This document shows, in pieces, positions 14,413-44,002 of a stretch of DNA of 50,294 nucleotides. Source of the stretch: an uncultured archaeon (lineage in GTDB: Archaea > Thermoproteota > Nitrososphaeria > JACIWG01); assembly GCA_938034445.1 (NCBI GenBank), contig CALHLD010000002.1:1-50294 (forward strand). The letters run 5' to 3'. The notes under the pieces were generated by a model that was given only the letters and a program-made list of their open reading frames with translations, made no database searches and had not been told where the DNA came from. Made by a program: the position numbers and the translations under genes. Within the stretch, counting starts at the first letter, position 1. Each line of letters opens with the position of its first letter.

Positions 14413-14976
14413 ATGATGCATATGTCTTCGACTGGAGAAAAGAAATTTAAAGGCTGGATTGTTTCTCTTGACAAGCACAAGTCTCCAATACCAGAAACTG
14501 TCATATACTTTAATGCTGCAAGAGACTTGAATACCGTAACAGGAAAGATATTACCTCTCTCCTGGATAAAATCACTTAATGCTAATCTCAACAAGTTTTC
14601 AAACTATCATTTAAGTAAATGCATAAACAAAATTGTTTCACCAGACGGTGAGGATATGACCGAATACATGATCTTTGCAGTTTTAGCTTCGAAAAAGGAT
14701 TCTATAAAATCATATTCAGACAACACTTACAGCATTCCCCCATCAGATGTACCCCTATACAGTAAGGTTGGGTTACTTATTAGTGTCTCAGAAGATAATC
14801 AAGTCGGCCTATTCGGATTAAGGCCATATGAGTTATTCAATTCTGTTGCATCTAGGCCTGTGCGCGCCAAAATTTTAGAATCACTTATAGTTAATAGGCC
14901 TGACTTTTGGGAAGAGGTGTACATTCTAGTAACTGCAGACTATGATTGGAGTAAAATCTTTTACACAAGTAAATGA
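14413..14976 (+). CDS. Protein of unknown function, 187 aa
   Basis: I do not recognise this soluble 187-residue protein. It has no membrane segment, no signal peptide and a single cysteine. A mixed alpha/beta character is suggested by KGWIVSLDKHKSPIPETVIYFNAARDLN, EYMIFAVLASKK and VGLLISVSEDNQVGLFG. The gene is a clear reading frame preceded by TATA-like CTTAAAAG (14385-14392) and TATATTAT (about 14398-14405). These allow leaderless starts at the ATG of 14413 or 14422. It lies 147 bases upstream of the transaldolase-like gene on the same strand; a functional link is only a guess. Confidence 0.6.
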   Translation: MMHMSSTGEKKFKGWIVSLDKHKSPIPETVIYFNAARDLNTVTGKILPLSWIKSLNANLNKFSNYHLSKCINKIVSPDGEDMTEYMIFAVLASKKDSIKSYSDNTYSIPPSDVPLYSKVGLLISVSEDNQVGLFGLRPYELFNSVASRPVRAKILESLIVNRPDFWEEVYILVTADYDWSKIFYTSK

Positions 14977-15123: not shown

Positions 15124-17265
15124 ATGCACAGGCGAAGAACTATGACAAGTGTTTTAGAATTCATGAATATTAGGCCTAAAAGTTTGTCATTTCCAATCGA
15201 CAGCACTGACCACGTGGATCATGTGGTAAAGCTTGCATTAAATGGTCATGACAAGCTTGCTGCAGACCATTTATTAAACAAGGAAATGATTGGATCATTG
15301 GATTCTACAGTTGGAAGTATAGCGAGAAGACTTTCACTAGAATTTTATGCAAGTAAAAATTTTGGTCCCCAAGAATCTCAGCTTAATAGATTTAAAATCT
15401 ATAATGTCTTAGCACAAATTGCATTAAACCTTTTCGGTTATGAAAGAATAATTGTTGGTTTCAATGAATATGAAGTTAACCGATCACTTGACTACGTTTT
15501 CCAAACCCTGTCAGAGTTAGAGTCGTCTGAAAAGAAAATGTTCTCTTCTCCTACAGCTAAAGTGGCTGTTAATAGGATTTTGTCTGATATGAAAATTGTC
15601 ATGTCAAAGTTCTATAGGGCTCCCGGCTCCATGATATCTAAGATGGCTGAATCGATTGAAAAGAAACTTGATGAAGAAAATATCTTATACAGTTTTTTGA
15701 AGGCGTCAAAGGATGAGATTCAGAAAAATATATACTATCGTTTAAGTTTAAGTAACAATAGGTTTGGAAACGATTATGCTTTAGGATTAAGATGGCTAAG
15801 GCACTTAGGTTTTGTTCAAGTTTCAACAAACCCTGTGCTTGCAGCCGCAGCATATGTTGATGATGAAAGCTTATGGGAAGGATATTGTGGTGAAAGTTTT
15901 TGTGCAGACTTTAAAACAGTAGTTGATGAGAATCCAAAATGGGTTGCCTCACCCGAAACTTACGCTGACGAGATGACGATGAAGGCTACAGAGGTTTCAG
16001 TCTTCCCCAACCTTGCAGTATTTAGACCCATAGCTATTGCATCAAACTTTGAACATGGTATGGTGAGCTATCAGCTTAATCCACACGTTAGTGCAAGTGT
16101 TGAAGGAAGCTTAAAGGATGCGCTACAAATATATTCTGACGCCTACGAGTTCCTAAAAAAATATGATTCTTACCTGCTTTGGGGATACAAAAATAGGGAT
16201 GTTGAAATAGGACGTCCGAACCTTGTTTTCAAGGTTCCGGGAAACAATTCTGCTGCAATAGAGATAACATGTATGCTGGAAAGTCTAGGTATTGGAACAA
16301 ACAATACTGAAACCTATACAGTTTCACAGGAAGCATACCTTATAATATCAAAGATTGATGGTAGGGCGAAGGCTGTAAAAAAAGGTTTCCATGTTACAAC
16401 ATCCTACGAGACTACAATGTGTGGCAGATTAAATGATCATCTACGTGAACTTCAAGCTGAAATGTTACTTAATAGGGTGTGGGCCTGTGAGTCAGGCAAG
16501 TTTCTAGTAATGGAGTTGGCTAAAGCTTTTGGTCTTCAAGGATTTGAAACTATGTCAAAGGACACCCTTATTAGAACCTTAAGTGACCGTAAGTATCTAG
16601 GCAGTTTAACTAATGAAAACTTTGTTAAAATAATTTTGGCTTCAAAAATCTTAGGCTCCTCTGAAAAGGATATTATCCGATATTTAGAAATGCTGGAGGA
16701 CGATATTGGAAAAGCCGGCATTGCTGTAAGCCAAATACTCTTCAGACTCTTCTTTACACCAGAAAGTAGAAGTAAATGGTTCAATTATATTAAACAAAAG
16801 TATGGGTTAAATGATAGTCAAGCAAATGAGGTACTAGACGGCATACATGTGCTTCCAGCGTCAAAGAGGAAGCCGAGAGAAACTCTTCTAACCCTATCTC
16901 CAAATAATATGACTAACACAGAATTTCCAAACCATCAAACTAATGTAATGTTGGAAAGTTTAAAAGAAGGCTTTGATATTAAAATGTATGATAATGCTGT
17001 AATTAATCTAATGGTTGATAAAGAATCGATTTATCGCTTAACCGAATTATATGATATAAAAGAAGACTGTAGACTCGCCCTAGAACTTACGCCTGAACTT
17101 AAAAGTTTCTTTAAAGAAGTCGGTATAGACGTAGATGTAGGAGAAAGAGGCATTAAACCTGAAGATTGGCCGAAGTTCGGTGCTGTAATAAAAACCAAAA
17201 CAGAGTTCACGAACGCGTACAATGATTTTAAGGCTAAGGTCCTAAGTTTCATAATAAAATCTTAA
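15124..17265 (+). CDS. Large transaldolase-family protein (713 aa)
   Basis: The middle of this protein reads like a transaldolase barrel. LGFVQVSTNPVLAAA (about 228-242) matches the TTNP strand. NLVFKVPGNNSAAIEI (about 366-381) supplies a Lys at 370 where the Schiff-base lysine belongs. LGIGTNNTETYTVSQEA (about 388-404) matches GIxxNxTLxFSxxQA, and MCGRLNDH (about 432-439) resembles FVGRIDDW. About 215 N-terminal and 250 C-terminal residues, mostly helical, have no counterpart in standard transaldolases (about 220-340 residues). It may interconvert sugar phosphates, feeding erythrose 4-phosphate metabolism beside the split transketolase, or act as another aldolase. An AATAAATA element at 15095-15102 supports a leaderless ATG at 15124. 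Confidence 0.6.
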   Translation: MHRRRTMTSVLEFMNIRPKSLSFPIDSTDHVDHVVKLALNGHDKLAADHLLNKEMIGSLDSTVGSIARRLSLEFYASKNFGPQESQLNRFKIYNVLAQIALNLFGYERIIVGFNEYEVNRSLDYVFQTLSELESSEKKMFSSPTAKVAVNRILSDMKIVMSKFYRAPGSMISKMAESIEKKLDEENILYSFLKASKDEIQKNIYYRLSLSNNRFGNDYALGLRWLRHLGFVQVSTNPVLAAAAYVDDESLWEGYCGESFCADFKTVVDENPKWVASPETYADEMTMKATEVSVFPNLAVFRPIAIASNFEHGMVSYQLNPHVSASVEGSLKDALQIYSDAYEFLKKYDSYLLWGYKNRDVEIGRPNLVFKVPGNNSAAIEITCMLESLGIGTNNTETYTVSQEAYLIISKIDGRAKAVKKGFHVTTSYETTMCGRLNDHLRELQAEMLLNRVWACESGKFLVMELAKAFGLQGFETMSKDTLIRTLSDRKYLGSLTNENFVKIILASKILGSSEKDIIRYLEMLEDDIGKAGIAVSQILFRLFFTPESRSKWFNYIKQKYGLNDSQANEVLDGIHVLPASKRKPRETLLTLSPNNMTNTEFPNHQTNVMLESLKEGFDIKMYDNAVINLMVDKESIYRLTELYDIKEDCRLALELTPELKSFFKEVGIDVDVGERGIKPEDWPKFGAVIKTKTEFTNAYNDFKAKVLSFIIKS

Positions 17266-17343: not shown

Positions 17344-18444
17344 ATGGCAAAAGTATTAATAAAAAATCTCGTAAAAAGGTTCGGTTCAACGCTAGCCGTA
17401 AACAACTTGAACCTTGAAATAAAGGACAAGGAGTTTGTCGTACTCCTTGGGCCTAGCGGTTGTGGTAAGACTACAACACTACGGTGTATTGCTGGACTTG
17501 AAACACCCGATTCTGGAGAAATATATATTGGTGACACTCTGGTCAACGACCTTCCCCCAAAAGATAGAGATATCGCAATGGTCTTCCAAAGCTACGCACT
17601 CTACCCCCACATGACCGTATACGATAACATCGCTTTTCCTTTAAAAATTAGGAAACTTCCAAAAAGTGAAATAGACAAGAAGGTTAAAGAAGTGGCTAAA
17701 CTTTTGCAAATTTCAGAGCTTCTGGACAGGAAGCCTAAGCAGCTTAGTGGTGGTCAAGCACAGCGTGTAGCATTAGGTAGGTCTATTGTTAGAGAGCCTA
17801 AGGTCTGGCTTATGGACGAGCCTCTCAGCAACCTAGACGCAAAGCTTAGACTTTACATGAGAGCTGAATTAAAACGTCTGCAAAAAGAGCTTGCGATAAC
17901 AACCGTATACGTGACACACGACCAGGCTGAAGCAATGACAATGGGCGACCGTATTGCTGTAATGAATAAAGGCTTACTACAACAGTATGCCTCACCAGAT
18001 GAAGTGTTCAATAGGCCTGCGAACGTCTTTGTTGCAGGATTTATCGGAAGCCCACCTACAAATATGGCTCCTGGAACATTTGTTGAAAAAGACGGTAAGG
18101 GCTACTTTGACGGTGGTGCTATAAAGTTTAGACTCCCTGATGCTGCTGTTGAGGCAATAAAATCAAAGGGTGTAAGCGAAATAATATTTGGTATAAGGCC
18201 GAGAGACCTTATCGTTTCAGATAAAAAGCCGGATACAGAAATGTATCTTACAGCAGAACTATACATTAGTGAACCTTTGGGTGACGAAATGGTCTTAGAC
18301 CTAAAAATGGATGATCAGATTTTCAAGGCTGTAGTAATGAGTTACGTTGGAGAAAAATTTGATATAGGCCAAAAATTGTATCTCACATTTGATCCAGCAA
18401 AACTGCATGTTTTCGATAAAAAGACTGAAGAACTAATCTATTAA
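17344..18444 (+). CDS. Sugar ABC transporter ATP-binding protein, MalK/UgpC type
   Basis: 366 residues with Walker A GPSGCGKTT (about 38-46), Q-loop MVFQSYALYPHMTV, signature LSGGQAQRVALGRS, Walker B VWLMDEPLSNLDAKLR and switch VYVTHDQAEAMTMGDR. The C-terminal 130 residues form the TOBE/MalK regulatory domain. Such ATPases energise importers of maltose, trehalose, glycerol 3-phosphate or other sugars. No permease or binding-protein gene is present nearby, so it probably serves one or more transporters encoded elsewhere. It has its own promoter-like gap upstream and a T-rich terminator-like stretch after it. Confidence 0.9.
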   Translation: MAKVLIKNLVKRFGSTLAVNNLNLEIKDKEFVVLLGPSGCGKTTTLRCIAGLETPDSGEIYIGDTLVNDLPPKDRDIAMVFQSYALYPHMTVYDNIAFPLKIRKLPKSEIDKKVKEVAKLLQISELLDRKPKQLSGGQAQRVALGRSIVREPKVWLMDEPLSNLDAKLRLYMRAELKRLQKELAITTVYVTHDQAEAMTMGDRIAVMNKGLLQQYASPDEVFNRPANVFVAGFIGSPPTNMAPGTFVEKDGKGYFDGGAIKFRLPDAAVEAIKSKGVSEIIFGIRPRDLIVSDKKPDTEMYLTAELYISEPLGDEMVLDLKMDDQIFKAVVMSYVGEKFDIGQKLYLTFDPAKLHVFDKKTEELIY

Positions 18445-18449
18445 ACAGC

Positions 18450-18478
18450 AAACCATTTTTCTTTTCTCCTTTTTTATT
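18450..18478 (+). terminator. T-rich archaeal terminator after the ABC ATPase gene
   Basis: Directly after the ATPase stop the plus strand carries runs of T (ATTTTTCTTTTCTCC then TTTTTTATTT). Archaeal RNA polymerase terminates at such oligo-T tracts without a hairpin. The next gene is convergent, which fits. Confidence 0.45.
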
Positions 18479-19442
18479 TAACATAAACTTGTGGGTTCGC
18501 TACATAAATGGGCCTTTGCCCATTAAAGAATCTTCTTAAATCTTCAGCGTTCATCAAATCTGTTCTCTGTAAAGCTTCTAATGTAAAGTTTGCATTATGT
18601 GGTGTTACTATTATATTGTCTAGTGTAAGTAGTGGATTTTTTGGATTTATTGGCTCCTCTTCGAAAACATCTAAAGCGGCTCCAGCTATCCATTTTTTCT
18701 TTAATGCCTCGTATAATGCTTTTTCGTCGATTACCGCCCCTCTTGAAGTGTTTATAAGATATGCTGTACTTTTCATTAACTTTAATTTTTCCCGATTTAT
18801 CAAATGTTTAGTTTCAGGAGTTAATGCCACATGCAATGTTACGATGTCCGATGTTTTCAAAAGTTCATCTAATTTTGAGGGGATTGCACCGATTTTTCTA
18901 ATATCATCTTCTTTGACGTAAGGGTCATATACCAATATTTTTACATCGAAGCCTCCAAGCTTTTTTGCAACTCTTCTACCTATTCCCCCAAAGCCTATGA
19001 TTCCAACCGTTTTCCCCATCAACTCATATCCCAAGATTCTATTCCATCCACCATTAATCGTAAGATTATGGAGTTTAGGTATCATTCTCATAATGTTTAA
19101 GATTAGTGCGATTGCATATTCTGCAACCGAATCAGAGTTAGCTTGAGGTGTGTAGGTTACAACAATTCCCTTTTCTGTTGCAGCCTCAATGTCTATGTTA
19201 TCTATGCCGACGCCATGTCTTGCAATAATCTTTAATCTTACTGCATTATTTATGACTTCCCTGTTTATCTTCTCGTTTCCTACTATAATGCCATCAAAAT
19301 TCTTCACTATATCGACTATTTCTTTATATTCTTTAACACTTTTAACCTCGACTTCAGAAAATGTCTTTAAAATTTCTAGTGCTTCTCTACAATATTGTCC
19401 AAATGATTTTGATATAACACAGATTTTAGGCTTATTTGACAT
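18474..19442 (-). CDS. D-isomer-specific 2-hydroxyacid dehydrogenase (SerA-like)
   Basis: About 322 residues from the ATG at 19442 (MSNKPKICVIS); an in-frame ATG at 19451 adds three residues. The NAD-binding motif is VGIIGFGGIGRRVAKKL. Catalytic-region blocks are INTSRGAVIDEKAL, DVFEEEPINPKNPL and VTPHNANFTLEA. The ARHGVGIDNID block is typical of phosphoglycerate and related hydroxyacid dehydrogenases. It lacks the C-terminal ACT domain of many SerA proteins, so it may be phosphoglycerate dehydrogenase or a glyoxylate/hydroxypyruvate reductase. It lies 84 bases after the next hydroxyacid dehydrogenase on the same strand. Confidence 0.8.
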   Translation of the reverse strand: MSNKPKICVISKSFGQYCREALEILKTFSEVEVKSVKEYKEIVDIVKNFDGIIVGNEKINREVINNAVRLKIIARHGVGIDNIDIEAATEKGIVVTYTPQANSDSVAEYAIALILNIMRMIPKLHNLTINGGWNRILGYELMGKTVGIIGFGGIGRRVAKKLGGFDVKILVYDPYVKEDDIRKIGAIPSKLDELLKTSDIVTLHVALTPETKHLINREKLKLMKSTAYLINTSRGAVIDEKALYEALKKKWIAGAALDVFEEEPINPKNPLLTLDNIIVTPHNANFTLEALQRTDLMNAEDLRRFFNGQRPIYVANPQVYVK

Positions 19443-19535
19443 TTCCATCACAAAAAATGTTAGAGAATATAATTATTAAGTTTTAAGATTGATTGGAAAT
19501 CTGTTGGTGCAAAAGTATAAGAAGTCAACCGTCTC

Positions 19536-20540
19536 TCATATAACTTTTGTTTCATTTAGTGGTCTAATTTTTATTACGTCAGAATTTAGTAATGCTGGTG
19601 GCATTTCACCTTTTAGAACTGAAATCAAGTTGTTTATCGCCAAATTCAGCATAGCCGTTCTTGTTTCAATTGATGCAGAACCCCTATGAGGTGATAGAAC
19701 AACATTTTCCATATCTAATAGTTCACTGTCAAGTGGAAGTGGTTCGGTTTCAAAAACATCCAATCCGGCACCCATTATCCACCCTTCTTTCAATGCCTTA
19801 ATTAGTGCCTTTTCATCGATAACCGCTCCTCTTGAAGTATTAACGATTATCGCATCCTTCTTCATCAATCTAAGCTTGTTTTCATCTATTAAATGGTAGG
19901 TTTCTTTTTGAAGTGGAACATGAATACTAACAACGTCAGCATTTTTTAAGAGTGTTTCAAGGTCACAGTATTCGAAGTCAAGTTTGTCTGCATCCGGCGG
20001 TTTTATGATATCATAGTATATCACACGCATTCCGAAGCATCTTCCTATTTCAGCTACTCTTCTACCGATTCTTCCTAAACCAATTATTCCCAAGGTTTTT
20101 CCCTTTAAGTCCCTTCCTAAAGGCTCCTTGTAAATACCTTTAACCCACTTTCTTGCTCTAACAATACGTTCAGCCTCAGAAATTCTCTTATAGGTTGAGA
20201 TGATAAGTCCCCATGTTACTTCTGCTACACAATCACTTAATACACCTGGTGTATAGCATACGTAGACTCCTCTTCTTGTAGCTTCTGGAACATCTATATG
20301 ATCATAGCCTACACTATATGTGCTTACAACCTTTAATTTTGGTGCGTGTTCAAAAAGTTCTCTATCAACCTTTATATGGGGTGCAGTGAGTAAACCAACT
20401 TTGTCATTGAGACTATTTAATAAGTTTACCCTATCTTTTACTAGTTCAAGTCCTCCTTCAACTATAAAATATTCTCTAAGCTTTTCGAGTGCGTTATCGG
20501 GCAACTCTAATGTGGTTAAAATTTTTGGTTTCATAGGCAT
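19536..20540 (-). CDS. Glyoxylate/hydroxypyruvate reductase-like 2-hydroxyacid dehydrogenase
   Basis: 334 residues, similar in layout to archaeal glyoxylate reductases. It contains STYSVGYDHIDVPEATRRGVYV, LGIIGLGRIGRRVAEIGRCFGM (Rossmann motif), VNTSRGAVIDEKALIKAL, DVFETEPLPLDSELL and LSPHRGSASIETR. The catalytic Arg, Glu and His are in place. It probably reduces glyoxylate or hydroxypyruvate with NAD(P)H. It shares strand and general family with the next gene (18474-19442) but is clearly diverged from it. A link to the carboligase-like gene at 1.9-3.7 kb is possible because both would handle glyoxylate; this is inference. Confidence 0.82.
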   Translation of the reverse strand: MPMKPKILTTLELPDNALEKLREYFIVEGGLELVKDRVNLLNSLNDKVGLLTAPHIKVDRELFEHAPKLKVVSTYSVGYDHIDVPEATRRGVYVCYTPGVLSDCVAEVTWGLIISTYKRISEAERIVRARKWVKGIYKEPLGRDLKGKTLGIIGLGRIGRRVAEIGRCFGMRVIYYDIIKPPDADKLDFEYCDLETLLKNADVVSIHVPLQKETYHLIDENKLRLMKKDAIIVNTSRGAVIDEKALIKALKEGWIMGAGLDVFETEPLPLDSELLDMENVVLSPHRGSASIETRTAMLNLAINNLISVLKGEMPPALLNSDVIKIRPLNETKVI

Positions 20541-26169: not shown

Positions 26170-26430
26170 CTATTGTATTTTCCTGCACATTTGTATAATC
26201 TCTTTAAATATTTTTTCGCAATCTTCTGGGCTTAAACCATTTTCTATCGCTAAACTCCTTACTCTACTATAAATTTCATTTTCCCTTTTGAAATCTATTA
26301 TCGGTAAACCTTTTTCCTTTTTTAGTCTTCCTATATCCTTTGCAGCCTTAACCCTTTCAGCTAAAAGTTTGACTATTTCCTCATCAATGTAGTCTATCCT
26401 CTTCCTTATAGCCTTAATGTCTTCGCTCAT
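26170..26430 (-). CDS. aroQ: Chorismate mutase, AroQ type
   Basis: 86-residue all-helical monofunctional chorismate mutase. IRKRIDYIDEEIVKLLAERVKAAKDIGRLKKEKG contains the conserved Arg, Lys and Arg residues. Helix 2-3 residues DFKREN and the C-terminal KIFKEIIQMCRKIQ are also typical. It rearranges chorismate to prephenate, which TyrA (22.4 kb) and PheA (41.5 kb) use. It is the last gene of the aro operon and overlaps aroC by 4 bases. Confidence 0.93.
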   Translation of the reverse strand: MSEDIKAIRKRIDYIDEEIVKLLAERVKAAKDIGRLKKEKGLPIIDFKRENEIYSRVRSLAIENGLSPEDCEKIFKEIIQMCRKIQ

Positions 26431-27533
26431 TCTATCACGTCTTTTACAACCTTTGGAACGATTCCTGCTTTCATGGCGTGGTCTGCAAGAACTATTGCGA
26501 CCATGCTTTCAACAACAGGCACAGCCCTTGGAACTATGCATACATCATGTTTTCCTTCGACAACTAATGTCCTTTTTTCCATTTTTACTAGGTCTATAGA
26601 ATATTGTTCTTTAGAAATTGAGGAAGGTGGCTTTATCGCGACCCTACACAGTATTGGCATCCCACTACTTATTCCACCAAGTATTCCTCCTGAATTGTTT
26701 GTTATTGTAACAACTTTTCCATCCTCTATCGTATACTGGTCATTGTTCTCTGAACCCCTTAGTTTGGCAACATTAAATCCTCTACCAAACTCTACACCCT
26801 TTACAGCTGGTATTGCATATAATGCTTTAGAAATGTCCCCTTCTAGTGTATCGAAAACTGGCATACCTAACCCTGCTGGAACGTTTAATGCTAAACATTC
26901 TATTACTCCACCCAAACTGTCCCCCTCAATTTTAACATTTTCAATCATTTCCAATATTTTTTCTGACGCCTCCAAGTCTGGACATCTAACTGGGCTCTTC
27001 TCAACATGTTCTCTAATTTCGTTTAAATCCATTTGTTTCATTCTGATCCCGCCTATTTCTAATGTATAAGCTAAAACTTCAATATTAAGTAGCTTCAATA
27101 TTCTTTTTGCCACAGCTCCAGCCATAACGAAGCCGGCGGTGATTCTTCCCGAAAACCTTCCACCACCTCTGTAGTCGTTGAAGCCACCATATTTTATATA
27201 CGCTGTATAGTCAGCATGTCCTGGTCTTGGAACAAACTTTATCCTCTCATATGATGTTGAATCGAATTCCTTATTCCATATAACCATGCATATTGGTGCT
27301 CCTGTAGTGTAGCCGTTAAATACTCCGGAAAGGATTTCCACCCTATCCTCTTCGCTCCTGCTTGTTGAAAAAATTTCTTGGACCGGCTTCCTTCTATCTA
27401 GTTCCCTTTGAATCATCTCTTCAGAAAGTTTTAGTCCTGCTGGACATCCGTCTACGACGACGCCTATGCACTTTCCATGGCTTTCTCCAAAACTTGTGAC
27501 TTTAAAACTGTCTCCTATACTGTTTCCAGTCAA
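26427..27533 (-). CDS. aroC: Chorismate synthase
   Basis: 368 residues. SFKVTSFGESHGKCIGVVVDGCPAGL is the N-terminal family signature, and RPGHADYTAYIKYGGFNDYRGGGRFSGRIT is the second. FNVAKLRGSENND and HDVCIVPRAVPVVESMVA mark the C-terminal part. The enzyme needs reduced FMN and converts EPSP to chorismate. Length matches archaeal and bacterial monofunctional forms. Its start overlaps the aroA stop by 4 bases. Confidence 0.96.
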   Translation of the reverse strand: MTGNSIGDSFKVTSFGESHGKCIGVVVDGCPAGLKLSEEMIQRELDRRKPVQEIFSTSRSEEDRVEILSGVFNGYTTGAPICMVIWNKEFDSTSYERIKFVPRPGHADYTAYIKYGGFNDYRGGGRFSGRITAGFVMAGAVAKRILKLLNIEVLAYTLEIGGIRMKQMDLNEIREHVEKSPVRCPDLEASEKILEMIENVKIEGDSLGGVIECLALNVPAGLGMPVFDTLEGDISKALYAIPAVKGVEFGRGFNVAKLRGSENNDQYTIEDGKVVTITNNSGGILGGISSGMPILCRVAIKPPSSISKEQYSIDLVKMEKRTLVVEGKHDVCIVPRAVPVVESMVAIVLADHAMKAGIVPKVVKDVIE

Positions 27534-28783
27534 CCAATCACCTTAACATTCGCACCTAACCCTATCATTACTTTCCAGAATTCTGGAAAAGATTTTCTCA
27601 CACACTCTGCACTTAACATTGTTGTTTCTCCTTCAGCTACAAGAGCTAAAGTTGCTAGTGCCATCGCAATTCTGTGATCGTTAGCTGGATCTATTTTTGC
27701 ACCATAAGCTTTTGAGCCAAAAATTTTGAAAAAGTTTTCTCCAACCTCACTTCTTATACCCATCCTTTCAAGATTCTCTTTCATCACATACACTCTATTG
27801 CTTTCCTTAAATTTTAGTCTTTTCACACCATAAATTATACTTTTACCTTTAGCTTGTGAACAGAGTACACATAAGGGTGGAAATAGGTCTGGACAATCTG
27901 AAATATCAAATTCTATTGGCTCTAAACTTGACTTTTCAACCATAACCATGTTTCCATTTGCCCAAACCTTTGCACCCATTGCTTTAAGTACTTCTACAAT
28001 TTTTCTATCAGCTTGCATGCTCTCTAAATTTAATCCCTCAACCTCAACTTTACCACATAATGCGCCCGCAACCAGAATATTTGATGCTGAACTCCAGTCT
28101 CCTTCAACTTCAAATTTTGTAGGAACATATTTTTGTGGGAACATCTCAAATCCGTTTGCCCAAGATACTTTAACACCAAATTTTCTTTGAATATCCACTG
28201 TTAAGTTAACATAAGGTTTTGACTCAATATTATCACATCTTATTGAAACATTTTTTTCAATCATTGGTGAAATTAGGAGTAAGGCTGAAATGAACTGTGA
28301 GCTTATGTTTCCTTCAATTTTCACTTCTCCACCAACAGGCTTTCCCTTGACAGAAATGGTGTCTCCAATTTTTTGGCACTTAACTCCTAGGCTTCTTAAA
28401 GCCTCCAGTAGTGGTTCTATTGGCCTCTGCATTAAGCTACTACTTCCTGTAATCTTGCATTCCTCTCCTACCAGAGATGCTACTGCTGTAATAAACCTTA
28501 GTGTTGTTCCAGAATTCCTGCAAAATATTTCTCTTTCAGGCTTTTTTAGGATGTTTCCTTCCACAAAAATTTTATCCTCTTCCTTTAACATGTTTATGCC
28601 AAGAAGTTGAAGTGCTTCAATTGTAGCCTCTGTATCATCACATAGTAGTGGTGAAATTATAAGACTTTTTCCCTCCGCTAGGCTTGAGCACACCAAAGCC
28701 CTATGTGTTACGCTTTTGGAAGGCGGTGCCTTCAATGATCCACTAACTTCGCCCTTCCCTATCAAAGCCTTCAATTTTATCAC
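27530..28783 (-). CDS. aroA: 3-phosphoshikimate 1-carboxyvinyltransferase (EPSP synthase)
   Basis: 417 residues. Motifs are LKAPPSKSVTHRALVCSSLAEG (N-terminal phosphate-binding Lys-Ser), FCRNSGTTLRFITAVASL, GSSSLMQRPIEPLLEALRSLG, EGDWSSASNILVAGAL and ANDHRIAMALATLALVAEG. It joins phosphoenolpyruvate to shikimate 3-phosphate. The start at 28783 is inside the 3' end of aroK, a 41-base overlap; a GTG is used. Its stop overlaps aroC. Confidence 0.95.
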   Translation of the reverse strand: MIKLKALIGKGEVSGSLKAPPSKSVTHRALVCSSLAEGKSLIISPLLCDDTEATIEALQLLGINMLKEEDKIFVEGNILKKPEREIFCRNSGTTLRFITAVASLVGEECKITGSSSLMQRPIEPLLEALRSLGVKCQKIGDTISVKGKPVGGEVKIEGNISSQFISALLLISPMIEKNVSIRCDNIESKPYVNLTVDIQRKFGVKVSWANGFEMFPQKYVPTKFEVEGDWSSASNILVAGALCGKVEVEGLNLESMQADRKIVEVLKAMGAKVWANGNMVMVEKSSLEPIEFDISDCPDLFPPLCVLCSQAKGKSIIYGVKRLKFKESNRVYVMKENLERMGIRSEVGENFFKIFGSKAYGAKIDPANDHRIAMALATLALVAEGETTMLSAECVRKSFPEFWKVMIGLGANVKVIG

Positions 28784-29282
28784 CTAAAATCTCTATAACC
28801 CTATTCACTACCTCTTCAACACTTTTTCCTGTGGTATCAATTATATAGTCTGCTGCCTCAAGGTAGTAGGGTATCCTTTTCGATAACAGTTCCTCAACAT
28901 GTTTTATGCTATAGTTTGGGCCAAGTAATGGTCTTGTACCTTTATCTTTTAAGCTTCTTTGGTAAATTGTTTCAGGTGTTGCCTGCAAAAGAAATATTAT
29001 TCCATTTTCTTTAAGTGCTTTAACATTACATTTGTCAAGTACGACTCCACCGCCGCAATCTATTACCACACCGTCCATTTTAGACACTTCATTCACGACT
29101 TCCTTTTCAATTTTCCTGAAAAAGAGCTCTCCATACTCTTCAAAGATTCTGGGTATACTCTTTCTACACTTTTCAACTATCATTTCATCTGTGCTCATAT
29201 ACCTTTTTCTTAGCATTTTTGCCACTTCCTTTGCAATAGAAGTTTTTCCTGTAGCCATAAAGCCTATGAAAACTATGTTCAT
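28743..29282 (-). CDS. aroK: Shikimate kinase, P-loop (bacterial AroK) type
   Basis: About 179 residues from the ATG at 29282 (MNIVFIGFMATGKTSIAKEVA). A longer frame from 29357 is unlikely because this ATG overlaps the aroE stop (TGATG) and places Walker A correctly. Conserved AroK features are STDEMIVE (Asp for Mg/shikimate), IFEEYGELFFRKIEKEVV, CGGGVVLD and DKGTRPLLGP. It phosphorylates shikimate with ATP. Many archaea instead use an unrelated GHMP-family shikimate kinase, so this nucleoside-kinase-fold version suggests lateral acquisition or replacement. Confidence 0.92.
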   Translation of the reverse strand: MNIVFIGFMATGKTSIAKEVAKMLRKRYMSTDEMIVEKCRKSIPRIFEEYGELFFRKIEKEVVNEVSKMDGVVIDCGGGVVLDKCNVKALKENGIIFLLQATPETIYQRSLKDKGTRPLLGPNYSIKHVEELLSKRIPYYLEAADYIIDTTGKSVEEVVNRVIEILGDKIEGFDREGRS

Positions 29283-30142
29283 CACGACCTTTCCTTCTCT
29301 AGCACTTCTAGAGCAGCTTTTCTCATAACCTCTAAGGGTGCTTCTACTCCTGTCCAAATTTTAAAGGAAAGTGCTGCCTGATTAACGAGCATGTCTAGGC
29401 CATTTATAGTTTTACAGCCAACTTCTGTTGCATCTTTTAAGAGTCTTGTTTGGAGAGGATTATAGACTATGTCCATGATCACCATATTTTTTCTTAAACA
29501 GTTTTTGGGGACAGGTGTTTTTTCTATGTTCGGATACATTCCTAATGGCGTACAATTTATAAGCAAGTCTGCATCCATTAAGGTTTCCTCTAGTTGGATA
29601 GTATCCAAAATTTTAGCTTCACAATAAACTTTTGTCTCTCTTCTTAAACTTTTTGCGAGTTTTGCTGCGTTTTCTGGTGTCCTATTTAATATCGTTATCT
29701 TGTTAGGTTTTTCTAAAGCAATATAGTATGCTATTGCCTTCGCCGCACCACCGGCACCTACTATTACTACGACCCTGTCCTTTAGGTCAAAGCCCCTTTT
29801 CTTTATTGCCATTAAAGCGCCTTCTCCGTCTGTATTGTATCCCTTAAGTATTCCATTGTCGTTTAATATTGTATTTACAGCACCAATCTTTTCAGCAACT
29901 TCATCAACTTCATCTAAATACTTAAGAACTTCTATCTTATGAGGGATTGTAACATTTAATCCTTTTACATTTAACGCTCTAATGCCTTCAATCGCTTTTT
30001 TTAGCATATCTTTCTTAACCTTAAATGCTAGATAGTAGTAGTTTAATCCAAGTGCTTGGAAAGCGGTGTTATGTATTATTGGGGAAACTGTGTGCTCTAT
30101 TGGGTCTCCTATTAGACAACAGACACTCACATTATAGGTCAT
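29282..30142 (-). CDS. aroE: Shikimate dehydrogenase
   Basis: 286 residues. CLIGDPIEHTVSPIIHNTAFQALG forms the shikimate-binding N-terminus, and NVTIPHKIEVLKYLDEV contains the catalytic Lys. GAVNTILNDNGILKGYNTDGEG follows, then the NADP site VVIVGAGGAAKAIAYYI and ILNRTPENAAKLA. INGLDMLVNQAALSFKIWTG is the C-terminal signature. It reduces 3-dehydroshikimate to shikimate. It begins 15 bases after aroD and its stop overlaps the aroK start. Confidence 0.95.
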   Translation of the reverse strand: MTYNVSVCCLIGDPIEHTVSPIIHNTAFQALGLNYYYLAFKVKKDMLKKAIEGIRALNVKGLNVTIPHKIEVLKYLDEVDEVAEKIGAVNTILNDNGILKGYNTDGEGALMAIKKRGFDLKDRVVVIVGAGGAAKAIAYYIALEKPNKITILNRTPENAAKLAKSLRRETKVYCEAKILDTIQLEETLMDADLLINCTPLGMYPNIEKTPVPKNCLRKNMVIMDIVYNPLQTRLLKDATEVGCKTINGLDMLVNQAALSFKIWTGVEAPLEVMRKAALEVLEKERS

Positions 30143-30157
30143 AGGCTTCTCACCAAT

Positions 30158-30826
30158 CTAGTAAAATATTTCATTGAGCATACTGTAGAAGTCTTCAAGT
30201 TTTTCGAAATCAACCTGTCCCTTTGCTGACTCTAGACCATGTCCAATTGAAGCATACGTGAACATTCCCCCAAAAAATGGCGAAAGTATTCTACTTAAAA
30301 CACCTGCTTCACCCATGCAGAAGGCGACTACTGGCGCAATTTTATAACATTCTCTAATAAGCCTTAATATTGTAAGATTGTCTTCAAAACTTTTTGCAGT
30401 GGTAACTATTTTACATACGTCTGCACCCAATTCAACCTCGTTCTCAAATATTTTCTTTAGTTCTTTTAAAGGTGGTGTTCTGTCAAAATTGTGATAAGAA
30501 ATTAAGACTTTAGTGCCAACTTCCCTTACATTTTTAACAACTTTTTTAATGTTCGATGACTTAAGCTCTATGTCAATGTATTCTGCTCCAAAATTTATTG
30601 CCCTCAAAAGCTCTTTAACTCTACTTTCTTCATCAAAGTTCCATAATCCTCCCTCATCCTTTCGTCTATTGCATGCTATCCAAGGCTTTTCTATCATCTT
30701 CGCAAGCGCTGTCCAAGAATCTCCTATCATGTCTATTCTGACTTCAACAAGGTCGGAGCTGTTTGCCACTTTAACATATCTTTCATCAAATTTTGTGAGT
30801 ACTGTGCAAACTTTTGGTTTCTGCAT
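30158..30826 (-). CDS. aroD: 3-dehydroquinate dehydratase, type I
   Basis: 222 residues of the class I (Schiff-base) enzyme. DLVEVRIDMIGDSW is the first barrel block. ISYHNFDRTPPLKELKKIF contains the catalytic His, and ADVCKIVTTAKSFEDN contains the Schiff-base Lys in the CKI motif. FCMGEAGVLSRILSPFFGGMFTYAS is the C-terminal active-site loop. It dehydrates 3-dehydroquinate. It lies between aroB and aroE with only a few bases either side. Confidence 0.94.
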   Translation of the reverse strand: MQKPKVCTVLTKFDERYVKVANSSDLVEVRIDMIGDSWTALAKMIEKPWIACNRRKDEGGLWNFDEESRVKELLRAINFGAEYIDIELKSSNIKKVVKNVREVGTKVLISYHNFDRTPPLKELKKIFENEVELGADVCKIVTTAKSFEDNLTILRLIRECYKIAPVVAFCMGEAGVLSRILSPFFGGMFTYASIGHGLESAKGQVDFEKLEDFYSMLNEIFY

Positions 30827-30830
30827 TTAA

Positions 30831-31874
30831 CTATACACCATTCTTTAATGCATCCAAAATCTTCTCCCTTTCTACTTCTAGAACGCTCACTTTTCCTATT
30901 TCCTCTGGCAGTACAAGGGCTGTCCTGCCGTACCATGCCTTTTTATCTTTCTCCATTTCCTCCACAATCCTATACAAATTTATTTTTGTTAAAGTAGGCA
31001 ACCCCATCTTCTTCAAAAGTTCTATCACATCTCTAGTTTGCTCAAAACCTGTTATTTTTTCTGCAACCTTACACGCTAAGACCATTCCTATTGAGACAGC
31101 GAATCCATGTTTTATTCTATAATTTGACAGCCTCTCTATAGAATGTCCGAATGTGTGTCCAAAGTTCAAGATTCTCCTCAAACCTTCTTCCCTCTCATCC
31201 CTGCTCACTATATCCACCTTCATCTTCACACATTTTTCAATCACATCTTGCAAGACTTTAGCCTCTCTTTTCCTTAAAACTTCAACATTCTCTTCTATAA
31301 AATCGAAAAATTTTCTATCACATATTATTCCGTACTTGATAACCTCAGCCATTCCATTTAAAAACTCGTCTTCTGGTAAAGTTTCGATAAACTTTGTGTC
31401 GACTATTGTAAATGAAGGTTGGTAAAATGTCCCTATCATATTTTTACCATGAAAATTTATACCATTCTTTCCACCTATGCTTGAATCGACTTGAGCAAGT
31501 AGTGTTGTAGGTATTTGTGCAAAATATATGCCTCTCATAAAGGTTGAGGCTACAAATCCTGTGACATCGCCTACTACTCCACCCCCTAACGCTAGCATAA
31601 GACTTTTTCTGGTATACTTTTCTTCGATAAGCTTCTTCCATAGCCTTTTTGCTGTGCTAAGGCTTTTTCCCTTTTCCCCATTCTCTATCTCAAATTTTTC
31701 AACCTTTTCTCCTAAACCAATTTTTTTAGAGACCTCTTCAAACCAAATTTTTCCAACATTTCTGTCCGTAACAACACATACTTTAAAAGGGTTTAGCCTC
31801 TTAACTTCCTCCTTAAGATGGCTTAATGCGTTTCTCTCAACAATTATGTGTCCCAGTTTTCCCTCTAAAATCAT
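30831..31874 (-). CDS. aroB: 3-dehydroquinate synthase, AroB type
   Basis: 347 residues. ALGGGVVGDVTGFVASTFMRGI is the NAD-binding glycine-rich motif. TTLLAQVDSSIGGKNGINFHGKNMIGTFYQP is the active-site signature, and LNFGHTFGHSIERLS and HGFAVSIGMVLACKVA contain zinc-binding histidines. It cyclises DAHP to 3-dehydroquinate. Its presence together with a DAHP synthase shows the classical entry from erythrose 4-phosphate, not the 2-amino-3,7-dideoxyheptulosonate route of many euryarchaea. Its start overlaps the aroF stop by 4 bases. Confidence 0.96.
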   Translation of the reverse strand: MILEGKLGHIIVERNALSHLKEEVKRLNPFKVCVVTDRNVGKIWFEEVSKKIGLGEKVEKFEIENGEKGKSLSTAKRLWKKLIEEKYTRKSLMLALGGGVVGDVTGFVASTFMRGIYFAQIPTTLLAQVDSSIGGKNGINFHGKNMIGTFYQPSFTIVDTKFIETLPEDEFLNGMAEVIKYGIICDRKFFDFIEENVEVLRKREAKVLQDVIEKCVKMKVDIVSRDEREEGLRRILNFGHTFGHSIERLSNYRIKHGFAVSIGMVLACKVAEKITGFEQTRDVIELLKKMGLPTLTKINLYRIVEEMEKDKKAWYGRTALVLPEEIGKVSVLEVEREKILDALKNGV

Positions 31875-32653
31875 CTTACTTCACGTAATTCGCACATCAT
31901 TTGGTTGAACATTTTAAAGTCAAGCTGCTGTTTTCCATCACTTAATGCCTTATCAGGTTCAGGGTGAACTTCAACCATTATTCCATCACATCCTACAGCC
32001 TTTGAAGCTTTAGCTAAAGGTAGTACAAGTTTTCTAGAACCTGCTGCATGTGATGGGTCCACTATAACTGGAATGCTTGTAAGCTCTTTAACTATTGGCA
32101 CCGAAGCTAAATCTAATGTGAACCTCGTCTCGTTAACGAAGGTTCTTATCCCCCTCTCACATAGTATAACTTTCTCATTTCCTTCACACATTATGTATTC
32201 TGCTGCACACAGCCATTCCTCTATAGTTGAGCTGAATCCTCTTTTTAAAATTACAGGTTTATTCGCTCTACCAACTTTTTTGAGGAGTGTATAATTTTGC
32301 ATGTTTCTTGCACCAATTTGCAATATATCTGATACCTTACAAACTTCTTCTAAGCTGTGTTCGTCCACAACTTCAGTAACAACAGGCATTTTTACTTCCT
32401 CCTTAACTTCCTTTACAATCCTTAAACCTTCGACACCCAGTCCCTGAAAGGAATACGGTGACGTCCTAGGCTTAAAAACCATTGCACGAAGTACATCCAC
32501 TCCACTTTCTTTGAGAAATTTTGCTGTCTTGGAAAATTGTTCCCTAGACTCTACAGCACATGGACCAGCGATTACAACAAATTTCCTACCAAAGACAACA
32601 TCATCAACCTCTACTATTCTATCCTTTTTTTCGAGGACAAGTTTAAGGTTCAT
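31871..32653 (-). CDS. aroF: DAHP synthase, type I-beta
   Basis: 260 residues of the short type I-beta 3-deoxy-D-arabino-heptulosonate 7-phosphate synthase. FVVIAGPCAVESREQ contains the metal-binding Cys. AMVFKPRTSPYSFQGLG binds phosphate and PEP. KPVILKRGFSSTIEEWLCAAEYI and VIVDPSHAAGSRKLV provide further catalytic residues, and MVEVHPEPDKALSDGKQQL closes the barrel. It lacks the fused ACT or chorismate mutase regulatory domain found in some relatives, so any feedback control must act elsewhere. It starts 6 bases after the transketolase C-terminal half, whose product it uses. Confidence 0.95.
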   Translation of the reverse strand: MNLKLVLEKKDRIVEVDDVVFGRKFVVIAGPCAVESREQFSKTAKFLKESGVDVLRAMVFKPRTSPYSFQGLGVEGLRIVKEVKEEVKMPVVTEVVDEHSLEEVCKVSDILQIGARNMQNYTLLKKVGRANKPVILKRGFSSTIEEWLCAAEYIMCEGNEKVILCERGIRTFVNETRFTLDLASVPIVKELTSIPVIVDPSHAAGSRKLVLPLAKASKAVGCDGIMVEVHPEPDKALSDGKQQLDFKMFNQMMCELREVR

Positions 32654-32659
32654 GAGGAC

Positions 32660-33589
32660 TCACCCTTTAACGAAACTTAAAATATTTTTAGTTAAAGCTC
32701 CCACATTTAACCCATATTTTTCAAGAAGTTGTAGATAGTTTCTAGAAGATTCGCCGAACATATCAGGCACACCTAACCTTTTAACCCTAAAACCTTTCTC
32801 AGAAAGCATTTCACAAACAGCTGAACCCATTCCACCAATTATATTATGTTCTTCGATTGTGACAACCTTGTCGGATTTTTCACAGACTTTCTTGAGCTCC
32901 TTGTCCAGGGGTTTAATTGTGTGAAGGTCCACTACAGAGGCCTGAAAGCCATATTCAAGAAGTTTCCTTCTAACTTCAAGTGAAATGTGTACCATTAGAC
33001 CACATGCTATAATTGTTAAGTCCGATCCTTCTTCTAAAATATTTGCTTTACCAAAGACAATATCCTTCTCACCTTCATATATTTTTGGCGCATAATCTCT
33101 TCCGAGCCTCATGTAACAGGGGCCATTCAAGCGAATAAGCTGTTTTAGTAGACTTCTTATTGAAATCGGGTCTGATGGCACAACAACATTCATTCCAGGC
33201 AAAACTCTCATTAACGCAATATCTTCTAAACACTGGTGAGAAGATCCGTCAGCAAAATCGCTTAACCCCGAATGTGTTGCAACAATTTTAACATTAAGAC
33301 TGTCTCTTGCAATAGTATTTCTTATCTGCTCCCAAGCCCTTAAAATAAACATAGAAAATCCTGTGATTATTGGAATAAACCCCTCAAGCGCTAAACCAGC
33401 AGCTATACCCGCCATATCCTGCTCACTTATTCCTACATTAATAAACCTGTTAGGAAACATGTTCCTAAATAGGAATGTTTTAGTGGAAGCACTGACATCA
33501 GAATCTAACACAATTACATTATCGTTTTCTGCTCCTATTTCAATCAAAGTTTCTCCAAACGTTTCTCTTGCACTTATCAAATTAACCAT
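32660..33589 (-). CDS. Transketolase, C-terminal subunit
   Basis: About 309 residues from the ATG at 33589 (MVNLISARETFGETLIEIG). A frame from 33652 would place 21 unlikely residues in front, and the 33589 ATG overlaps the stop of the N-terminal subunit (ATGGTTAA). NVIVLDSDVSASTKTFLF and INVGISEQDMAGIAAGLALEGF contain the catalytic Glu of the pyrimidine domain. TKIVATHSGLSDF-type (here VKIVATHSGLSDFADGSSHQCLEDIALMR) and VVTIEEHNIIGGMGSAVCE mark the rest. It pairs with the upstream N-terminal half to form a split transketolase that makes erythrose 4-phosphate for aroF. Confidence 0.92.
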   Translation of the reverse strand: MVNLISARETFGETLIEIGAENDNVIVLDSDVSASTKTFLFRNMFPNRFINVGISEQDMAGIAAGLALEGFIPIITGFSMFILRAWEQIRNTIARDSLNVKIVATHSGLSDFADGSSHQCLEDIALMRVLPGMNVVVPSDPISIRSLLKQLIRLNGPCYMRLGRDYAPKIYEGEKDIVFGKANILEEGSDLTIIACGLMVHISLEVRRKLLEYGFQASVVDLHTIKPLDKELKKVCEKSDKVVTIEEHNIIGGMGSAVCEMLSEKGFRVKRLGVPDMFGESSRNYLQLLEKYGLNVGALTKNILSFVKG

Positions 33590-42535: not shown

Positions 42536-44002
42536 ATGACTTGTATGATAGAAACTCCAAGATATCTTGGTTCCATACCTCATCCCTCCATAGGTGTTCG
42601 CATGCCAAAAATTTTCCTGGAAGGCATACTCACAGCATTTAAAGAACGAAACACAGCAGGAGGACTAATGCTATCATATGGTAGGGAAACAGCCCCACAG
42701 TATGTGATAGAATCTAAACCTGGAACCTATGATATAACCTTAGGTCACACTGGTGTATCCATAAAAGAATATATTATGGAAAGTGTTTATGCAGCAAGAA
42801 AAAAGAATGTTGTTGTAGAAATTGAAGCAGACCATTTGATAATAGGCTCATCTTTGCAAGCAGTCCAAAGACTTTACGAAGCACGTGAAAGCCTATCTCT
42901 GGATAATGAAATAATCGAATCCTCTATGGAATATAATAGGAGCGCAATAGATGAAGCTATAGCAACAGGCTACGTTAACACCTTCACCATAGATGCGACA
43001 AGCCTAATAGACTATAAAGTAATGGAATATCCTAAAGAAAAAGTGTACGAACTATTTGAGGAAGGAATAAAAGAAGGTAAAGAGCTGCTGAAAAAGTATG
43101 CAAACAAAAACTTACTCTTTAGCTGGATAAACAGTAAACTGTACAAAGTCCATTTCACTGATGTTGAAGTAATGAAGATCGCTTTAGCCTTCGACAAAAA
43201 CTTGAAGGCTACAAAACAGCTTTACTCGTACATTGAAAAGAAAATGGATGGAAAACCTTTTGGTTTTGAAATAGCCTTAGATGAAATCCCCGTCTACACT
43301 GGTAAAGAGCTTGCTCTATACTTGGACATGTGGAAATCTATGGAGGCGCATGTAGACTTTATAGCACCCTATATTGGATTCAGGAAAAGAGAAGACTACA
43401 CAGGAAGTCTAGAGGAACTTGAAAATAGGTTAAGCTTTTTGTCTGCAATAGCATACGGATACGGATGCATGCTTTCTATACATTCTGGAAGCGGCCTAAC
43501 ACCATACACTGGAAAAGGTGAAGGAGTATATGATTGTATACTTAGGGCGACAGGAGGTCGTGTAAAATATAAGATTTCAGGAATATATGTGGAACTACTT
43601 CTCGAACTTTTAGCAAGCTCAAAAGAAACTGGATATAGGAACATTTTTGAAAAAATTTTCGATGACGTCAAAACATATATTGAAGAGCAAATAAAACAGG
43701 GTACACCATTTGCTAGTAAAGGATTAAAGGAAAAATACACTATGTACTTAGAAAATTTGAGAAAAGGCTTATGTAAGGAAAGGGATAGTAGAGCCGACTT
43801 CTTTAGACATTATTCCTTTATAGCATTAAACCTAAGAGACCCTTCAGGCAAAAGATACCTAAAGGAAACATTAGAGAACCTCTACCAAAATGATAAAGAG
43901 TTCAAGACACTAGTAGATCAAGAAGTCAAAGCACTTACACTAAGATTAATAGACGGCCTAAACTATTCAAACAACATTCAAAACATTCTTAAAAAATGTT
44001 AG
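42536..44002 (+). CDS. UxaE-family (tagaturonate/fructuronate epimerase-like) protein
   Basis: 488 residues. The C-terminal half follows the UxaE pattern: FGFEIALDEIPVYTGKELALYLD, then FIAPYIGFRKREDYTGSLEELENRLSFLSAIAYGYGCMLSIHSGSGLTPY, then GRVKYKISGIYVELLLELLA. The last 60 residues (HYSFIALNLRDPSGKRYLKETLENLY) also match. EIEADHLI and TFTIDATSLID in the first half correspond to further family blocks. UxaE enzymes epimerise tagaturonate and fructuronate with a divalent metal in hexuronate breakdown. No other hexuronate gene is nearby, so the natural substrate here may differ. A damaged second copy of its 3' end lies at 45.6-46.0 kb. The ATG is leaderless with a TATA-like box upstream. Confidence 0.65.
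   Translation: MTCMIETPRYLGSIPHPSIGVRMPKIFLEGILTAFKERNTAGGLMLSYGRETAPQYVIESKPGTYDITLGHTGVSIKEYIMESVYAARKKNVVVEIEADHLIIGSSLQAVQRLYEARESLSLDNEIIESSMEYNRSAIDEAIATGYVNTFTIDATSLIDYKVMEYPKEKVYELFEEGIKEGKELLKKYANKNLLFSWINSKLYKVHFTDVEVMKIALAFDKNLKATKQLYSYIEKKMDGKPFGFEIALDEIPVYTGKELALYLDMWKSMEAHVDFIAPYIGFRKREDYTGSLEELENRLSFLSAIAYGYGCMLSIHSGSGLTPYTGKGEGVYDCILRATGGRVKYKISGIYVELLLELLASSKETGYRNIFEKIFDDVKTYIEEQIKQGTPFASKGLKEKYTMYLENLRKGLCKERDSRADFFRHYSFIALNLRDPSGKRYLKETLENLYQNDKEFKTLVDQEVKALTLRLIDGLNYSNNIQNILKKC

Follow-up and report, generated by a model that had tools for sequence, protein, structure and literature searches.

Results

The long transaldolase gene and its surroundings

The window analysed here, a stretch of 50,294 nucleotides from an uncultured archaeon of the Thermoproteota, contains at 15124..17265 (+) an uninterrupted frame of 713 residues that codes for a long transaldolase-family protein, as indicated by the ORF, a Pfam match, orthologues and a structural model. 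The true start is probably ATG 15142, which gives 707 residues, since the orthologue at locus L002 aligns from this codon onward and residues 1–8 of the model have a pLDDT below 50. Pfam TAL_FSA (PF00923) scores 27.0 bits against the ORF, which is exactly the curated cut-off of 27 (E 3.6e-6), and 28.7 bits in the genome scan, placing the protein in this family. The match is not due to chance, for in a family alignment each of the 32 members matches this profile at E≤1 (best E 3e-13). The motifs STNP (residues 234–237), FKVPGNN (369–375, including K370), GTNNTETYTVSQEA (391–404) and MCGRL (432–436), which a first-pass annotation had picked out, are all in place. As to another transaldolase gene in the genome, also raised there, this protein was the only PF00923 match in the assembly, even with E allowed to reach 10. 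A viral or plasmid origin was considered and rejected: phages gave no match, viral contigs none, and no viral fold matched at E≤0.001, while plasmids yielded one weak, ordinary tal (25% identity).

Profile matches identify a sugar-type (MalK/UgpC-like) ABC transporter ATPase directly downstream (17344..18444, +), of which members of the same cluster also follow the gene at L033, L034, L063 and L065, and two 2-hydroxyacid dehydrogenases of the glyoxylate/hydroxypyruvate reductase group (18474–19451 and 19536–20540, both −), whose relatives adjoin the long transaldolase in other archaea. Just upstream lies a 187-residue ORF (14413–14976, +), conserved in the genus (L002, L003), for which Pfam and NCBIfam gave no match. 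Further away, a divergent UxaE of the tagaturonate epimerase family (42536..44002, +; 488 residues; PF16257, E 1.4e-19) has a syntenic copy, 86% identical, in genus-mate G003. The split transketolase noticed in the first pass was also found (32660–33652 and 33582–34637, both −); it heads a single gene cluster (26427–34637, −) that also encodes DAHP synthase and the remaining shikimate enzymes as far as chorismate synthase.

Fold and domain layout

We built an AlphaFold2 model of the long transaldolase on 52 aligned family members (pLDDT 93.9, pTM 0.92). In this model, eight barrel strands follow each other in transaldolase order between residues 213 and 600, with strands 1–4 at 213–216, 230–235, 313–317 and 367–372, and strands 5–8 at 391–395, 427–432, 574–579 and 596–600. 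The predicted structure hence shows the eight-stranded barrel with a lysine on strand 4 that characterizes the superfamily. By VIA, residues ~200–711 superpose on the transaldolases from Neisseria and Corynebacterium with Z 31–32 (Z 32 for residues 202–707) and an rmsd of 2.5–2.6 over 332–342 aligned residues. As modelled, the barrel of the 713-residue protein is a complete transaldolase barrel.

The first-pass annotation had confined the transaldolase part to residues 215–450, flanked by two unrecognized regions. The model and the superposition retain an extra, unrecognized N-terminal part of ~210 residues but extend the transaldolase part well beyond these limits. Strands 1–6 with their helices, assigned from model, superposition and alignments, occupy residues 213–453 (15760..16482, +), which hold D217, STNP 234–237, Q317, K370, N393, T395, T430, M432 and R435. 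Strand 6 is separated from strand 7 by 141 mostly helical residues, of which ~120 form a helical insert in the model (residues ~454–572; 16483..16839, +). Residues 573–713 (16840..17262, +) comprise, on the same evidence as the first six strands, strands 7 and 8 and the C-terminal helices, and hold E600 as well as ASKR 579–582 with the equivalents of the phosphate-site Ser and Arg. The 260 C-terminal residues described before as matching nothing known thus include strands 7 and 8, S580-x-R582 and the classical C-terminal helices, and only ~454–572 are extra.

The N-terminal domain (residues 1–212; 15124..15759, +) is predicted to be all-helical, also when its ~210 residues are modelled separately (pLDDT 93.1). 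Foldseek gave no match in the PDB at E≤0.001, the best VIA hit (Z 8.2) stays below the level that helical models without clear relatives reach, and the one sequence match is weak (E 0.66). The predicted domain is thus without a convincing PDB match, which in itself does not make it a new fold.

Active site

Over the 52 rows of the family alignment (A4), K370, N393, T395, D217, R435, S580 and R582 are invariant, and so are Q317, M432, K581 and E600. As reference we used 29 classical archaeal transaldolases of ~223 residues from the same phylum, nearly all of the same class, together with C. glutamicum transaldolase. K370 (codon 16231..16233, +), the predicted Schiff-base lysine, aligns with the Schiff-base lysine of these enzymes, and N393/T395, R435, S580 and R582 align with their counterparts. 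These data bear out the earlier assignment of Lys370 as the Schiff-base residue, and by strand assignment and alignment the barrel residues do not appear to be misplaced for Schiff-base chemistry.

Two positions set the family apart. In the alignments Q317 (16072..16074, +) stands where transaldolases have their catalytic Glu, and M432 (16417..16419, +) where they have a Phe. These correspond to what we take to be the functional switch positions of the superfamily, namely Glu96/Phe178 in TalB, Glu60/Phe132 in the Thermoplasma enzyme and Gln59/Tyr131 in fructose-6-phosphate aldolase (FSA); PDB titles include mutants at exactly these positions. In classical transaldolases (EC 2.2.1.2), strand 3 carries the catalytic Glu and strand 6 the Phe, whereas all 52 members have Gln317 and Met432. 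An FSA has Gln and Tyr there, with which Gln317 agrees but Met432 does not.

A conserved family in Thermoproteota

The long transaldolase belongs to a conserved and widespread family of ~720-residue proteins. Matches were obtained in 55 of 398 sampled genomes of the phylum, and 53 of these carry true family members, some of them as fragments at contig ends; the weak matches in G180 and G241 are to proteins of ~400 residues and were set apart from the 53 family carriers. Frames of ~399–437 residues that match PF00923 (G180:C26, G241:C29, G080:C38 and G101:C152) point to a further size class of the transaldolase family in the phylum. Scanning named genomes, we obtained 61 loci, with hosts among Bathyarchaeota, Thermofilum and relatives, Ignisphaera, Desulfurococcales, Brockarchaeota and metagenome-assembled 'Thaumarchaeota'. 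Five members (L048, L053, L066, L085 and L091) come from bins with the bacterial labels Aerophobetes, Parcubacteria and Poribacteria, which could reflect either transfer or mis-binning. In a set of 61 closely related genomes, the gene is confined to three from the window's genus, one of which is the window genome itself. Many other genomes of the same class carry a classical transaldolase of ~223 residues instead. Several carriers of the long transaldolase (G070, G105, G325 and G408) have a separate classical one as well. Literature searches, which covered few subscription journals, returned nothing on a long transaldolase family or on a fructuronate aldolase; as far as they show, this is an uncharacterized subfamily of a known superfamily.

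Gene neighbourhoods

We compared 62 loci, i.e. the 61 from named genomes and 18 kb of the window; many of them end at contig ends. Within the stretch covered, UxaE is found at 13 loci, a 2-hydroxyacid dehydrogenase at 16, a PF01261 protein at 17, a KduI/IolB protein at 6 and IolN at 5. At L071, the sister of the window's genus (support 95/92), IolG-like, IolM, IolN, IolO-like, long transaldolase, UxaE and glyoxylate/hydroxypyruvate reductase genes stand in a row. Of these, IolM (546 bits, cut-off 450), IolN (302, cut-off 245) and the glyoxylate reductase (488, cut-off 455) exceed their cut-offs, while the IolG-like (286, cut-off 355) and the IolO-like protein (271, cut-off 300; opposite strand) stay below. 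Genus-mate G001 has an IolG-like protein (298 bits, cut-off 355), IolN (513 bits) and part of IolM. At L043, an IolB gene (222 bits, cut-off 205) begins 12 bases downstream of the long transaldolase.

On a tree of 52 members, vicinity to UxaE (12 loci plus the window, where UxaE is 25 kb off) requires 11 changes, at least 10 of which are forced by well-supported branches. Hence, the linkage is scattered over the family and found on either side of the tree, rather than being limited to one clade; indeed, 160 of 500 shuffles needed as few changes, i.e. the label is not clustered on the tree. In the UxaE tree, the divergent proteins of L042, L044, L059, L075, L077–L079 and L088 group with that of the window, so that the clade of the window's UxaE sits near the long transaldolase in other lineages. 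Over 17 near-full-length UxaE sequences of both the strong and the divergent kind, 24 residues are invariant.

Other neighbours are less uniform. The PF01261 proteins (cluster 1) are mixed, and none of the 10 tested reaches the cut-off for IolO or hydroxypyruvate isomerase. The cluster labelled IolM (cluster 5) is mixed as well: IolM over the cut-off was confirmed only in L059, L062 and L071, and the member at L051, for which only a Pfam scan is at hand, matches generic zinc alcohol dehydrogenase families. Neighbourhoods vary by lineage, and some include URO-D-like proteins, PhoPQ-related proteins or a DhnA-type aldolase that lack an obvious place in the scheme proposed below. At L072, L073, L081 and L089 the gene lies near URO-D-like and PF01261 proteins and an AmmeMemoRadiSam-type radical SAM gene, and at three of these four loci a protein of the PhoPQ-related cluster is also nearby.

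Co-occurrence with uronate and inositol genes

UxaE was matched in 38 of the 398 genomes, and 35 of these 38 carry the long transaldolase. Of the 53 carriers, UxaE was thus matched in 35 and not in the other 18, as against 3 and 342, respectively, of the 345 non-carriers (Fisher p 2e-33). Counted by genus, from lists compiled by hand, it occurs in 21 of the 29 genera with carriers and in 2 of the remaining 135 (p 6e-18). Both p-values ignore relatedness beyond the genus. Nine of the 38 UxaE proteins are strong matches (E <1e-100); the rest, including that of the window, are divergent. By the thresholds used, UxaE gave no match in 18 of the 53 carriers, and 16 have neither UxaE nor IolM.

For other genes, we compared 55 carriers, i.e. 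the 53 family carriers of the sample plus genus-mates G001 and G003, with 25 hand-chosen non-carriers, three of which have UxaE. IolN exceeds its cut-off in 18 of 55 carriers versus none of the 25 chosen non-carriers, and the KduI/IolB family is found in 15 of 55 versus none. IolM exceeds its cut-off in 28 of 55 carriers and, among 14 control genomes, in one (T. maritima). Mannonate dehydratase (UxuA) was matched in 8 of 55 carriers and 2 of the 25 chosen non-carriers; it gave no match in the other 47 carriers, and none in 32 of the 35 carriers with UxaE. Since UxuA is rare in carriers and non-carriers alike, its absence points to a step that must be provided otherwise and does not distinguish the carriers. 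Uronate isomerase UxaC was matched in none of these 80 genomes, so that free hexuronates would need another entry. Glycerate 2-kinase was considered as support and set aside as non-discriminating, as it was matched in 54 of the 55 carriers and in 21 of the 25 chosen non-carriers. Its family, PF13660, has five matches in the window genome (G000; C5 twice, C4, C34 and C28), four to five in genus-mates G001 and G003, and no more than two in any other genome that was searched.

In the window genome itself, neither IolM nor IolN was found over the cut-off, and both a UxuA match and a transketolase are present. The case for an inositol or uronate connection in the window hence rests on the relatives and on the divergent UxaE 25 kb away.

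Discussion

Altogether, the long transaldolase is associated in genomes with enzymes that would make 5-ketohexonates, i.e. ketohexoses with a carboxylate at carbon 6. We thus tentatively propose, at somewhat less than even confidence, that it acts as a class I Schiff-base (trans)aldolase for 5-ketohexonates, including D-fructuronate and 2-deoxy-5-keto-gluconate. A novel activity of this type is plausible. Among the three suggestions of the first-pass annotation (pentose interconversion, a new aldolase or a regulated version), that of a new aldolase fits best, with a context of inositol and uronate genes in relatives.

In the proposed mechanism, UxaE would supply D-fructuronate, and in some lineages IolB would provide 2-deoxy-5-keto-gluconate. 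Attack of K370 (strand 4) on the C2 ketone would be followed by retro-aldol cleavage of the C3–C4 bond. IolO and UxaE invert both carbons of this bond, yielding the fructose-type configuration that transaldolase-family enzymes cleave, and in the IolB product C3 and C4 are configured likewise. The leaving three-carbon acid would be tartronate semialdehyde or, from the deoxy substrate, malonate semialdehyde. The enzyme-bound dihydroxyacetone would be either freed, which the Gln at the FSA position favours, or handed to glyceraldehyde 3-phosphate to give fructose 6-phosphate, which the retained phosphate-site residues favour. A hydroxypyruvate-reductase-type enzyme encoded nearby, followed by glycerate 2-kinase, would channel the acid half into glycolysis in place of the mannonate/KDG route. 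An isomerase step from tartronate semialdehyde to hydroxypyruvate would be needed, for which none of the 10 PF01261 neighbours tested reaches the cut-off. We infer this isomerase step, the substrate and the product, as well as what the helical domains do and whether a sugar phosphate or water accepts the dihydroxyacetone. As to the upstream steps, PMC12632266 describes the conversion of 5-keto-L-gluconate to D-tagaturonate by IolO, and PMC12076931 the interconversion of tagaturonate and fructuronate by UxaE. PMC12076931 also gives tartronate semialdehyde as a known precursor of D-glycerate, with which the neighbouring hydroxypyruvate-reductase-type gene would fit.

A fuller scheme is conceivable, though less likely than not: a new enzyme activity, namely an archaeal 5-ketohexonate transaldolase in a KDG-free inositol/hexuronate route, which would yield transferable dihydroxyacetone and tartronate semialdehyde from fructuronate. 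Its acid-base carboxylate would have shifted from strand 3 to another site, for which Glu600 at the end of strand 8 is a candidate, and it would have a new helical domain.

The most serious alternative is that the protein is the transaldolase of pentose interconversion. In the window organism this is backed by the lack of another transaldolase-family match in the assembly, by the cluster of transketolase and DAHP synthase genes in the same window, by the retained equivalents of the phosphate-binding Arg/Ser/Arg, and by the classical enzyme that other members of the class have instead. Across the family, however, Transketolase_N was matched in only 26 of the 55 carriers, the window organism among them, and gave no match in the other 29. 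Six of these 29 (G123, G156, G191, G201, G213 and G219, all of one genus) are 95–99% complete and assembled in 1, 2, 1, 1, 4 and 30 contigs, respectively. We take their genus to be Thermofilum or a close neighbour, since the copy in G219 agrees with that of Thermofilum sp. NZ13 (L032 and L065) in length and in identity to the window protein. Where transketolase is missing, it is hard to see what a transaldolase would contribute to the non-oxidative pathway. Hence, completion of the pentose interconversion, as suggested in the first pass, cannot be the general role of the family and stands for the window organism alone, owing to its transketolase. Moreover, the several carriers with both types, the replacement of the catalytic Glu and Phe in all members, and recurrent neighbours identified as inositol/uronate and related sugar-acid genes speak against this reading, which we regard as unlikely.

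A Schiff-base aldolase for another ketose of inositol or sugar-acid catabolism, e.g. a free fructose-like sugar or 5-keto-gluconate before epimerization, we consider improbable as well. The Gln at the position of FSA Gln59 (a position that appears in PDB titles) and the adjoining sugar-type ABC ATPase in the window would suit such an enzyme, and with neighbourhoods that vary by lineage the substrate may vary across the family. Yet Met replaces the equivalent of FSA Tyr131, and no single alternative substrate that we conceived accounts jointly for UxaE, IolB and the hydroxypyruvate reductase. Finally, a protein that has lost catalysis and serves as a sugar-acid sensor or scaffold, as the replacement of both superfamily acid-base positions and the large added helical domain might suggest, is highly improbable, since all 52 members keep the Lys, the Asn/Thr, the Asp and the residues of the phosphate site unchanged, as expected under selection for catalysis.

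The proposed 5-ketohexonate (trans)aldolase would bear on a gap in the inositol and sugar-acid metabolism of uncultivated heterotrophic Thermoproteota, where UxaC gave no match and mannonate dehydratase mostly none: as a widespread protein with an invariant site, encoded next to suitable upstream genes, it offers one candidate for the missing cleavage that can be put to the test. It also follows that a 'transaldolase' match in such genomes is no evidence for a pentose phosphate pathway. If true, the long transaldolase would, like sulfofructose transaldolase, be a transaldolase-family enzyme whose evolution led to the cleavage of a sugar that ends in an acid other than phosphate.

With the classical transaldolases (C. 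glutamicum, 3r5e; N. gonorrhoeae, 3clm/7oey; E. coli TalB, 1onr), the long transaldolase shares the barrel topology (Z 28–32), the strand-4 Lys, the strand-5 Asn/Thr, the Arg after strand 6, the strand-7 Ser-x-Arg and the C-terminal helices. It differs from them by Gln317 for Glu, Met432 for Phe, the invariant Lys581 and Glu600, the N-terminal domain of ~210 residues and the 141 residues between strands 6 and 7, at 10–18% identity. FSA (1l6w; 220 residues, barrel Z 17.3) has the strand-3 Gln in common with it but carries Tyr131 where the long transaldolase has Met. The inositol catabolism of the Thermotoga maritima type (IolG/M/N/O), together with UxaE, draws on the same gene families that lie beside the long transaldolase. 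In that route, the keto acid is reduced and then proceeds via KDG, whereas UxuA is mostly unmatched in the carriers and a transaldolase-type enzyme is present instead. As closest functional analogue we propose sulfofructose transaldolase (BmSF-TAL; 8bc2–8bc4, 8c4i), also a member of the transaldolase family (Z ~18.5), which, according to PMC9594981, cleaves a ketohexose with a non-phosphate acid at C6 and passes a three-carbon unit on. BmSF-TAL is short (~218 residues), decameric and encoded in sulfoquinovose clusters, whereas for the long transaldolase a carboxylate substrate is proposed and inositol/uronate neighbours were identified.
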